Shown: positions 10,003-14,306 of the stretch, piece by piece
Layout of the letters: each line of letters starts with the position of its first letter
Numbering within the stretch: position 1 is the first letter of the stretch
DNA from: Oscillochloris sp.
GTDB taxonomy: Bacteria > Chloroflexota > Chloroflexia > Chloroflexales > Chloroflexaceae
NCBI GenBank assembly: GCA_012032775.1
Contig: JAAUQO010000019.1
Span: 1 to 43,841 of the forward strand
DNA: 43,841 nt
Direction of reading: 5' to 3'
Notes under the pieces: model-generated
The model's input: only the letters and a program-made list of their open reading frames with translations
The model's database searches: none
What the model was told of the DNA's origin: nothing
Translations under genes and position numbers: made by a program

Positions 10003-11324
10003 CTAGCGGAATTCGTGCGCGCCGATATCCTCACGGTACATACGGCCGGGGAAACGGATCCGCTCGGCCGCGATCAAGGCTTTGCCGCAGGCGCCGTTCA
10101 ATGTGGCGCCCAGCGCAACCACCGTAGCCACATGCCCGCCGGTGACACTCATCCCGCCGGGCATGCTTCCCAGGCCGAACAATCCGGCCGAAGCGCTGCG
10201 CCCGGCCGGTTGATGGCGCAAGCCGTTCGGATTGTTGGTCTGATCGTGAAAACCAGGATGCCGGGATCAAGATCGCTTAATCCTTCCACCAATCCACCGA
10301 TCGGGTAATGGTGGGGATAGCCTTGCGGCACCACGGCAATCCCGACGCTCGACTCATCACGCCATTGCGGCGCCGCAACCTGCGCCAGACGCCGCATCTG
10401 AGCCGCTTCCACCAGCGGCAGCAGATCGCTCTCCAGCCGCGGCAAAACCACCTGCGCCTCCATATCGCGCAGCCCGCAGCGCAATGTCGTCACATATGGC
10501 CCGCGATCGGTGATCACACAATCGACGCCGATGAAACCCCAGTAGGGCAGGTTCTCTTTCGCCAACGCAGCCACAATCGGCACAATCAAATGCTGATGCA
10601 AATGCGCGCCCAGTTTTCGGCTATAGGTCGAGTTACTACAGATCGCGCCCATCCCCGGCGCTTCAGGGCTGCCCGGTTCGGGGCCAAGCCGGTCGTAGAT
10701 GCGGCTCGGCAAAAACGGCAGCGCCGTGGTGCCGTCGGTCAGGGCCGAGAAACTCACCAGGATGCCGGGCAGATGCTGCTCGATCACAACGCCGTTGCTG
10801 CTGCCCTCGATCGGACGGTTCACAAACAGTTCGCGCAACGCTTCCAATGCGGCATAGCGATCATGGTAGACGCCGCCGCCGCCGGCTGGATGATCGGCCC
10901 GCAGCAAGACCGGCAGCGGTTGGGCGGCCAGGTATTTCTCGGCGTTGCCCAGGCTGGTAAACGCCCGACCGGGAGGATTCGGCAGATTGTACTTTTGCAG
11001 AAACTCCTTGGCGTAGCAGTGGCTCCACTCCAGGCGGGTACTGCGCTGCGACGCGCCGCACACCCCGATCTGCATGCTGACGACTTCGTCAACCAATCCC
11101 GACCAGAGCAAGGTACTCTCGGCCGGCACAATCAAGTCGATGCCGGTGCTAAAGGCCCAGCGGCCCACCGCAACCACGTCGCTCGGATCGAGATCGACAC
11201 TGGGCGCCAACTGGTTGGTGCCGCCGTTACCCGGTGCACAAAGAATATCGGCACTGGGGCTATTGAAAAGCTTCCAGACAAAGGCATGGGCGCGGCCATC
11301 GTCGCCAAGTACCAGAATCTTCAT
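10003..11324 (-). CDS. Divergent PurD-like (GAR synthetase-like) ATP-grasp protein (one frameshift)
   Basis: Full length is about 440 residues, close to PurD (phosphoribosylamine-glycine ligase). Order of similarity: MKILVLGDDGRAHAFVWKL, CAPGNGGT, PAES, CGASQRSTRLEW, PVLLRADHPAGGGGV, PGMGAICSNS, EAQVVLPRLESDLLPL, GGHVATVVALGATLNGA. Key PurD motifs are altered: GGREHA is DGRAHA, KADGLAAGKGV is RADHPAGGGGV, and the metal/substrate loop NxRFGDPE is TLRCGLRDME. It is therefore a paralogue that may not make GAR. The frame breaks near 10246-10250 (TTTT where five T are expected on the coding strand), after ILVF; the tail HDQTNNPNG onward lies in the next frame. ATG 11324 has no clear ribosome site. 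Two palindromes stand just upstream. Confidence 0.7.
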
Positions 11325-11395: not shown

Positions 11396-12249
11396 CTAAC
11401 GGTGTTGATTCCGGGTTATCGTGATCAGGTTGCGCAACAGCATCGCATTCGTTACCGGGCCGGTGCCGCCGGGCACCGGCGTGATCGCCGCTGCAACCTC
11501 GGCTACCGGCGCGAAATCGACATCGCCGACCAACGCACCGTCGGCGGTAACATTGGTACCGAAATCGATCACCACGGCGCCGGGTCGAATCATCTCCGCA
11601 GTAAGCAGTCCCGGCTGTCCGGCGGCGACACAAACGATCGCACACTCACGCAGAGTCGCCGCGAGATCGGTGGTGCGTGAATGACATACCGTAACCGTGG
11701 CGTCGGCTTGAACCAGCAAAAGCGCCATCGGCCGTCCGACGATCGCACTTCGCCCAACAACCGCAGCACGCTTCCCACGCAAGGGAATCTGATAATGCTG
11801 TAAAAGCGCCATCCCCCCGGCGGGCGTATTCGGGATCAGTGCCGCCCGGCCCTGAGCGAGTAGACCGGCATTGATCGGATGCACGCCATCGACATCTTTG
11901 CGATAGTCGATCGCCATAATCGCCGCCGCAGCGTCAAGAGCGGCCGGTAGCGGCAACTGCAACAGAATGCCATCCACAGTGGCATCGTTGTTATGCGCGG
12001 CGATAACCATCTGCAGATCGGCATTGCTTGCCTCGGCGGCAAGAGATCGAGCCGAAAACCGGCGCCGGCGCCGGCACAAAGCTTCTCGATACTCCGAACA
12101 TAGCGAGTCGAGGCCGGATCGCCGGCCACCTGAATCACCGCCAACGTAGGCGGCCGGCCAATTTCAGCCGTCAGATCGGCGATCTCTTGCCGGGCCGCAG
12201 CACGTACCTCCTGGGCCAATGCCTTGCCATCCAGTAATATCGCGGGCAT
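11396..12249 (-). CDS. folD: FolD, methylene-THF dehydrogenase (cyclohydrolase lysine missing; one frameshift)
   Basis: Joined length is 284 residues, the usual FolD size. FolD oxidises 5,10-methylene-THF with NADP and normally also hydrolyses methenyl-THF. Seen motifs: [12 protein letters not shown] start, [74 protein letters not shown]. In the YVxxK motif the catalytic lysine (E. coli Lys54 position, Tyr+4) is Ile (codon at 12088-12090), while the Gln of QLPLP and the Asp of DVDG are kept. The frame breaks near 12035-12042: the N-terminal frame ends in LDLLPPR, and the next frame gives [22 protein letters not shown] 12249 follows fchA by 74 bases on the same strand, so the two are likely cotranscribed. 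Confidence 0.85.
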
Positions 12250-12273
12250 GAAACTTCCTGATATAGTCAAAGC

Positions 12274-12309
12274 AAAAGGCAAAAAGCAACCGTGTGCCCT
12301 TTGCCTTTT
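12274..12309 (-). terminator. Inverted repeat between fchA and folD
   Basis: AAAAGGCAAA (12274-12283) pairs with TTTGCCTTTT (12300-12309) over a 16-base loop. It is AT-rich with T-runs, so it may act as a partial terminator between the two genes. Confidence 0.35.
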
Positions 12310-12323
12310 ACCTTTGTACAGCA

Positions 12324-12968
12324 TTACCCATTGATGCGATCGCGCACCAACGCAATCACCCCGTCGGTCTCTTCATTCAACCCGATCAAGAGATCGGCGA
12401 TCTGAGCGCGTGTTTCGCGCACATAGATCTGATCTTCAAGACCGGCGAGGTTGATCTCGATATTCATCACCGCACTCTGCACCGTTGCCCGGGACAACAC
12501 CGCCGCCACCCCAACGTCGCTGACAATCAGCCGGGCGCAGCGACTGGCGAGGGCGGTACAGAGCGGCAAGAGTGCAGCCGCAGCCTGGGCAACCCGCAAT
12601 GGTACATCGGAGGCCTGACGCGTTACCTGTTGAATGGCCGACTGGCGCGAAGCCGCATCGGCATCGGTGGTACGCGGCAATTTGTAGGCGGCCGCAAGGC
12701 GCCCGAATACGGCGATATCATCTTCGGCCAACCGTTGCAACTCGGCCCGCAGCGCTTCGGAACGCTCCATAATACTACGGATCTCGTCCTCATACTCGGC
12801 GAACTGCTTCTTCCCGATCGTCAAATTACAAACCATACTCAACAGGCCTGCGGCCATCGCCCCGCTGAGGGCGGCAACACTACCGCCGCCGGGAGTAGGC
12901 GCGCGTGAGGCCAGCGCATCAAGAAATGCTCCGACCGACTGATCCTTCACGCTTTCGCTCTCAGCCAT
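12324..12968 (-). CDS. fchA: FchA-type methenyl-THF cyclohydrolase / cyclodeaminase family
   Basis: 214 residues matching the C-terminal cyclodeaminase domain of formiminotransferase-cyclodeaminase, which in many bacteria occurs alone as FchA and hydrolyses 5,10-methenyl-THF to 10-formyl-THF. Seen: LASRAPTPGGGSVAALSGAM (the GGGS glycine loop), the long helical bundle with RSEALRAELQRLAEDD, and NIEINLAGLEDQ near the end. ATG 12968 is chosen over ATG 12986 because GAGG lies 6 bases before it. It is the first gene of the minus-strand block fchA-folD-purD-like and can supply the cyclohydrolase step that the neighbouring FolD seems to lack. A cyclodeaminase role is less likely because no formiminotransferase is nearby. 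Confidence 0.83.
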   Translation of the reverse strand: MAESESVKDQSVGAFLDALASRAPTPGGGSVAALSGAMAAGLLSMVCNLTIGKKQFAEYEDEIRSIMERSEALRAELQRLAEDDIAVFGRLAAAYKLPRTTDADAASRQSAIQQVTRQASDVPLRVAQAAAALLPLCTALASRCARLIVSDVGVAAVLSRATVQSAVMNIEINLAGLEDQIYVRETRAQIADLLIGLNEETDGVIALVRDRING

Positions 12969-13164
12969 CCCGTACCTCACTTCCATTATGTTAATCCACT
13001 ATCAGCCTTACGGTGTCACTGAGTGATCATTATAGCAGCGATAAGAAACCGACTGCGGCGAAAAAACACCGTTCAGCGCGATGCCGGCGCGAACGAAATT
13101 GCCTGCGAGCGGATCCGAAAAACCAGCCGAAGCATGGTGCCATAAAGCGTGATACACTCACCAT

Positions 13165-14306
13165 ATGGATACGCTGATCTTCACCGGCGCCGCCGGAACT
13201 TCGGCCCGCGCCGCCGCTGCTACCGCCGCCACCGCCGCCGCTCGCGGCGTCAGGACATTGTTGGCAAGTTTCGGCCCAGAACATGCAATCGGTGTGCTTG
13301 CCGGCGCCGCGCCGACAGGTGAACCAGGCCAACTGACGCCGAATCTCACCCTCTGGAGCCTCGATCCGCTCCGCGATCTCACGGCGTTGTACGAACCCTT
13401 GCGCAACCTGGCGAATCTCAATGCAACCCTGGCCGGCATCACAGGGGAAGAGTTGCCGCTTATTCCCGGCGCCGATCTGTTTCTCGGCGTTGCCGGATTA
13501 CGCCGCCACGCCGCCGATCACCAACTGATCTGTATTGATGCCGGCTCGGCTGCCGGTTTGATCCGCGCAATGGCCGTCCCCGACACCTTCCGCTGGTCGC
13601 TGCGCCTGTTAGTCGGCCTCGACCGCGATCCCGGTCGCTCGCCGAGTTCTCTGCAACGGGCGCTGATCCCAACCAGCCTGATTCCCTTTCCAATGGAATG
13701 GCTCGGCCAGATACAACAGGCCCGCGTCGAACTGGATCGGCTGCGCCACGAAGCGGTTGATCCGCAACAAACCAGGGTGCGCTACGTCTTGCCTGCCGAT
13801 CGAGCCGGGTTAGCCGATACCCGCATCGGATTGCCGGCGTTGCAATTGTACGGACTGGCCGTCGATAGCCTGATCGCCGGCCCGGTTTTGCCGCCGGGAG
13901 CCGCACGCCTGGCGCTGGAAGCTCTGGCCGCCGAGCAAGATGCCGTAACCGCCGAAGCAGCGACACTCTGGGCACCGCGCCCACTGATGCGACTGCCGGC
14001 CGGTGCCACTCCCGGCGATATCACCGCCCTGGCCGAGCTGGGCCACGAATTGTACGCCGGCGCATCACCGCTCGATCTGCCGGAACCTGAGCCGCCGTTG
14101 CGCATCGGCGCCCCGAGGCGCCTAGTTTGCAGATTACCATGCCGGGATTACAGCGCGAAGATCTTGGACTGACGATCAGCGGCGACGAATTGATCGTGCG
14201 TGTCGGCCCATATCGCCGCCATGTGCTGTTGCCGGAAAGTTTACGCGGCATACCGGTGCGCGCCGCCCGCCAGGGTGATGCGCTCGTGATTAAACCCCGC
14301 GAGTAA
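13165..14306 (+). CDS. ArsA-like protein without a Walker A motif, HSP20-like C-terminus (one frameshift)
   Basis: About 380 residues when joined. The start MDTLIFTGAAGTSARAAAA aligns with the ArsA/Get3 N-terminus, but the P-loop GKGGVGKTT is GAAGTSARA, so ATP cannot bind in the usual way. The middle keeps ArsA-like shape (LFLGVAGLRR, ICIDAG, LLVGLDRDP, RYVLPADRAGLADT). The frame opened at ATG 13165 stops at 14172; from about 14111 the next frame reads EAPSLQITMPGLQREDLGLT and on to GDALVIKPRE, ending at 14306. That is the small HSP20-like beta domain that ends many bacterial ArsA homologues. One C is probably missing from CCCC at 14111-14114. No ribosome site is obvious, so it may be leaderless. 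The N-terminus is extremely Ala-rich. Confidence 0.7.

Follow-up and report, generated by a model that had tools for sequence, protein, structure and literature searches.

The division of FolD's two reactions between separate proteins is already known from Clostridium. C. perfringens reportedly combines a monofunctional FolD dehydrogenase with a separate FchA cyclohydrolase, as Aluri et al. are said to have described in 2016, and the stand-alone FchA of methylotrophs (7VG4), a member of the same family as the FchA studied here, works beside MtdA as the dehydrogenase. The C. perfringens FolD/FchA study is cited in PMC7219735. Yeast MTD1 (1EDZ) is presented, in titles cited in PMC11064299 and PMC6443876, as a monofunctional NAD-dependent methylene-THF dehydrogenase. 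As for the underlying chemistry, the cyclohydrolase step is described as using Lys54 as general acid/base, while Gln98 positions this lysine and Asp121 binds the pterin (PMC3338484). In Escherichia coli FolD, the K54N substitution renders cyclohydrolase activity undetectable and leaves about 19% of the dehydrogenase, Q98H leaves about 1% and about 8%, respectively, and binding of the FolD inhibitor carolacton requires Lys54 (PMC5688156).

Here, we describe a folD-fchA gene pair in a 43,841-nucleotide stretch of DNA from Oscillochloris sp. (contig JAAUQO010000019.1), referred to as the window. As in C. perfringens, a dehydrogenase FolD and a separate FchA would replace the bifunctional enzyme. 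However, C. perfringens belongs to a different phylum and has the formate-THF ligase Fhs, for which no match was found in the genome of the window, a metagenome-assembled genome (MAG) of 6.27 Mb in 374 contigs whose completeness of 93% makes this absence uncertain. Other Clostridia with an FTCD_C domain mostly have FolDs lacking the lysine, like that of the window. E. coli FolD has the same fold and residues, and its K54N mutant likewise loses the cyclohydrolase while keeping some dehydrogenase. Yet the wild type carries Lys54 and gave no FTCD_C match in a control search, whereas loss of the lysine in the lineage of the window is natural and conserved. Yeast MTD1, although FolD-related, comes from a eukaryote, is very distant at 52 bits against E. 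coli FolD, and has no FchA neighbor. The arrangement seen in the window is common to much of Chloroflexota. For the linkage rule at position 54 and the tandem FolD pairs presented below, no report was found in the literature searched, which included few subscription papers.

A FolD without the cyclohydrolase lysine beside a stand-alone FchA

Both genes lie on the minus strand, with fchA (12324..12968, or to 12986 if counted from an in-frame upstream ATG) located upstream of folD (11396..12249). An independent FchA beside folD had been claimed in a preliminary description of this DNA, and the protein of 214 to 220 aa indeed matches PF04961 with 210 bits (gathering score, 24.5), placing it in the FTCD_C family. 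Its 220-aa ORF carries no formiminotransferase fusion, and the genome gave no match to the formiminotransferase domain FTCD_N. We predict this stand-alone protein to be a 5,10-methenyl-THF cyclohydrolase.

The FolD of the window was delimited by domain searches and by tblastn with intact relatives. It matches both PF00763 and PF02882, in two frames across a break that is discussed below; the relatives have single intact ORFs. At the position aligned to E. coli Lys54, the codon on the minus strand (12088..12090, read from 12090 to 12088) is ATC, so that Ile in YVRSI takes the place of the catalytic Lys of YVxxK that marks a bifunctional FolD. The alignment thereby confirms the Ile reported earlier at this site, and the accompanying claim that other core residues are retained also holds: Tyr50, Gln98 (LLQLPLP), Asp121 (RKDVDG), GRSAIVGRP, and CHSRT are all present, which includes Tyr50, Asp121, and the GxSxxVGxP cofactor motif expected of a dehydrogenase. 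The best 25 NCBIfam models for this protein are all named bifunctional.

Position 54 of FolD across Chloroflexota

Family searches turned up a single FolD and a single FTCD_C in the window genome. Across the 60 nearest genomes, position 54 is Ile or Leu in every readable FolD, and an FTCD_C match is present in 60 of 61 genomes once the window genome is included. The genes fchA and folD are adjacent in families f1 (taken as Chloroflexaceae) and f3 and separated in f2 and f4; most members of f4 carry His at FolD position 98 besides the change at position 54. The order fchA-folD-purD, with the three genes consecutive, is found in the window and in two Chloroflexaceae genomes (G029 and G001). In the window, purD (GARS; 10012..11324, minus strand) is the next gene downstream of folD and was recognized by TIGR00877 (226 bits) and by GARS_N and GARS_A.

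Two further observations were made on FolDs of this sample. Roseiflexaceae-like FolDs (L017, L019, L028, L063, L065, L067, and L076) combine Ile54 with His98, the latter being the substitution of carolacton-resistant E. coli Q98H. Genus g6 (G005, G020, G028, G032, and G035) possesses a second, divergent FolD (L077 to L081) that lacks the lysine, is unlinked to fchA, and perhaps has a different cofactor preference.

For a wider view, we surveyed 161 Chloroflexota genomes of at least 90% completeness, counting order-level genomes apart and excluding one genome (G166) with an ambiguous FTCD_C frame. Where a genome has an FTCD_C that is not part of a fused FTCD, the lysine is missing from 71 of 75 sampled FolDs (Ile, 34; Leu, 24; Val, 12; Gln, 1), whereas it is kept in 47 of 49 FolDs from genomes that have no FTCD_C or only a fused FTCD of ∼520 aa; Fisher values on such raw counts ignore relatedness and are descriptive only. 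The two exceptions among the 49 are tandem folD duplicates. The four lysine-keeping FolDs on the other side come from genomes whose FTCD_C matches are weak (81 to 129 bits) and unlinked to folD. All 81 fchA-linked FolDs (24 order-level, 57 phylum-level) carry Ile, Leu, or Val instead of Lys.

Proposed division of the two activities

Alignment of 248 FolDs beside the E. coli protein showed Tyr50 to be kept in all but two, and position 121 to be Asp or Glu. Gln98, on the other hand, has departed in 58 of the 137 FolDs without the lysine vs 4 of the remainder. Retention of Tyr50 and Asp121 together with loss of Lys54 and often of Gln98 is the pattern that should be expected of a dehydrogenase without cyclohydrolase activity. 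We consider it very probable that the bifunctional FolD is here divided between the neighboring folD and fchA genes, with FolD acting as dehydrogenase only and FchA as hydrolase. This is the split put forward in the preliminary description, and we infer the two activities from the co-distribution, the kept residues, and the E. coli K54N data.

In such a pathway, FolD with Ile54 would oxidize 5,10-methylene-THF to 5,10-methenyl-THF with NAD(P)+ but would lack the general base that opens the ring. In the next step, FchA would hydrolyze methenyl-THF to 10-formyl-THF, which would feed purine synthesis. With purD adjoining the pair and a genome search revealing no formate-THF ligase, purine synthesis probably draws its 10-formyl-THF mainly from this pair, a direction of flux that we likewise infer.

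One might argue that the FolD is still bifunctional, with another residue replacing Lys54 and FchA providing an additional or regulatory cyclohydrolase, as Gln98, Asp121, and Tyr50 are all kept in the window. We regard this as very unlikely. K54N abolishes the cyclohydrolase in E. coli (PMC5688156), the replacements in Chloroflexota are nearly always aliphatic (Ile, Leu, or Val, with a single Gln), and Gln98 decays in many of these proteins too. Moreover, tandem copies aside, the lysine is retained in genomes that have no alternative enzyme.

Frame breaks in the contig

While the substitution and the FTCD_C neighbor stand, folD is not one open frame, which the preliminary description had not noticed. 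Positions 1 to 65 of PF00763 fall in the frame of 12324-11836, while positions 60 to 115 and PF02882 fall in that of 12079-11396, and tblastn with the intact FolDs of two relatives placed the break, one net frameshift, at about 12020-12045. The substitution itself is no artifact: its codon precedes the break, and all relatives of the same order in which folD can be read carry Ile or Leu here.

The break does not stand alone. According to tblastn, purD is broken at about 10250, its GARS_C domain being absent from the main frame and recovered in another, and a divergent ArsA-like gene is broken at about 14070-14120. Between 9700 and 14291, at least three neighboring genes (purD, folD, and the ArsA-like gene) are thus frame-broken, and a cyclase at about 9820 probably is as well; these multiple breaks point to indel errors in the contig. 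In addition, a contig from another Chloroflexaceae MAG (G009:C299) is 99.3% identical to 1.2 kb of the window (11999-13231), with all differences falling within a folD stretch of ∼50 bp that includes the break. The domain frames, the contig comparison, and tblastn together delimit a stretch (12020..12090, minus strand) that holds the break and all differences from this contig. The latter is likewise out of frame at the break, which there falls on the extreme end of the contig; hence, neither assembly appears reliable at this palindromic, GC-rich site.

Given that purD and the ArsA-like gene are also broken and that the near-identical contig differs only there, we read the folD frameshift as probably technical, that is, as a sequencing or assembly error. 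Breaks in several unrelated neighboring genes also led us to reject programmed frameshifting. That the organism's folD is a genuine pseudogene, and its Ile a product of drift, is very unlikely as well. Although the sole folD found in the genome does carry a net frameshift, relatives possess intact folD copies, and all readable ones within the order conserve Ile or Leu. The broken neighboring genes and the second contig speak against decay of folD, as does the lack of any Fhs bypass found in the genome.

A side observation concerns the second contig itself. This 3.6-kb piece (L062; G009:C299:1-2437) belongs to a Chloroflexaceae MAG of a different genus that has its own folD-fchA, yet it is 99.3% identical to the window; its presence there is probable binning cross-contamination.

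Identity of the FTCD_C protein

Against structures, the best match of the window FchA is the methenyltetrahydrofolate cyclohydrolase 7VG4 (154 bits), ahead of FTCD (98 bits) and the cyclodeaminase 1O5H (72 bits). The NCBIfam model NF045657 is matched over positions 2 to 207 of 207 with 214.6 bits, below its equivalog cutoff of 275, so that it is the context and the best match, rather than this model, that carry the functional assignment. The alternative that we hold least likely makes the protein a formimino-THF cyclodeaminase that serves histidine breakdown and has no relation to FolD. PF04961 does span both activities, and the NCBIfam FchA cutoff is missed, but the genome shows no FTCD_N, 7VG4 is the best structural match, linkage to folD is conserved, and genomes with only a fused FTCD keep the FolD lysine.

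The window FchA also carries the motif ALASRCARLIVSD, in which the E/Q-K/R-G-N (Gly-Asn) that is near-invariant in FchA is replaced; throughout Chloroflexaceae the replacement is mostly x-[CV]-[ASG]-R. This departure, like the score under the NCBIfam cutoff, counts against the proposed split.

Parallel losses in Clostridia and the situation in other phyla

In a sample of 69 clostridial genomes (class of Tissierella), 23 of 25 FolDs from genomes with FTCD_C are without the lysine vs 0 of 43 from genomes without it. Of the two exceptions, one is an additional copy whose genome also carries an fchA-linked FolD lacking the lysine. The preliminary description had named lysine in relatives with the same fchA neighbor as evidence against the split, and all 11 clostridial linked copies are without it, in line with the 81 of Chloroflexota. 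The comparison of genomes with and without fchA, also suggested there, points the same way: where a stand-alone FTCD_C is lacking, the lysine is kept in 47 of 49 FolDs of Chloroflexota and in all 43 of Clostridia. As a mark of a C. perfringens-type split, we required separate genes and lysine loss in the linked copy, a threshold set in this analysis rather than taken from the literature; every linked pair in the two samples shows it.

In a mixture-model tree with position 54 masked, the lysine was lost about five to six times, and the FolDs without it form some six groups. A Chloroflexota clade (support, 99/94) was recovered apart from a clostridial clade (99/83), the latter placed among lysine-bearing clostridial FolDs. 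A FastTree tree of 249 rows grouped most FolDs without the lysine together, with seven changes of which starred branches force only two. We judge a single, shared ancient origin unlikely, since the mixture-model tree parts Chloroflexota from Clostridia; for the same reason, the losses were parallel, with those in Clostridia independent of those in Chloroflexota, and the independent events few, about five to six. An independent-pairs sign test was not significant, informative pairs being too few.

In other phyla, 14 of 18 FolDs from FTCD_C-bearing genomes keep the lysine, with Arg and Ile in two each. An FchA anywhere in the genome is insufficient for loss of the lysine; the better predictor is linkage, or FchA serving as the dedicated partner of FolD. 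A scan of named genomes for FchA returned mainly methylotrophs with an FchA without linked FolD, and 15 of 34 sampled FTCD_C-bearing genomes, mostly methylotrophs, are without a PF00763 FolD.

Tandem folD pairs

Tandem pairs of folD were found in G104 (L395:6834-8630), in G153 (L396:8782-10596), and, twice, in G319 (L397:1743-3521 and L398:1113-2900); no FTCD_C was found in G104 and G153. The first copy of each pair is without Lys54 and has an intact NADP motif (GRSNIVGKP). The second keeps the lysine and Gln98, but its NADP motif has decayed to [NS][VA]DN[LM]VGKP, and CYPxT or CHPxT replaces CHTGT. The change of Ser168 to Asp in the second copy occurs in no other FolD among those aligned. In G104, the NAD(P)-domain score drops from 205 bits for one copy to 168 bits for the other; the catalytic-domain score shows no such drop (127 and 136 bits). 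The G104 pair is part of a Wood-Ljungdahl cluster, with Fhs/RACo genes on one side and CODH/ACS genes on the other. G153 contains another FolD, apparently intact, where a contig ends.

The sequence features of these pairs suggest reciprocal loss after duplication as another way of arriving at this split. On balance, we favor a scheme in which FolD was split repeatedly along two routes. In the more frequent one, FchA took over the cyclohydrolase step, with loss of Lys54 and often of Gln98; in the other, followed by some Chloroflexota without FchA, tandem duplication yielded a dehydrogenase-only copy and a cyclohydrolase-only copy, the second without the NADP-binding Arg/Ser, and the two perhaps form a heterodimer.

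Implications

One residue together with gene linkage appears to predict which of the FolDs annotated as bifunctional are dehydrogenases only. The bifunctional label that such proteins still carry in curated models affects how C1 and purine metabolism is modeled for Chloroflexota and Clostridia. FolDs without the lysine are predicted to be naturally insensitive to carolacton, and the tandem pairs lend themselves to a clean test of the ways in which an enzyme with two activities in one active site can be divided.
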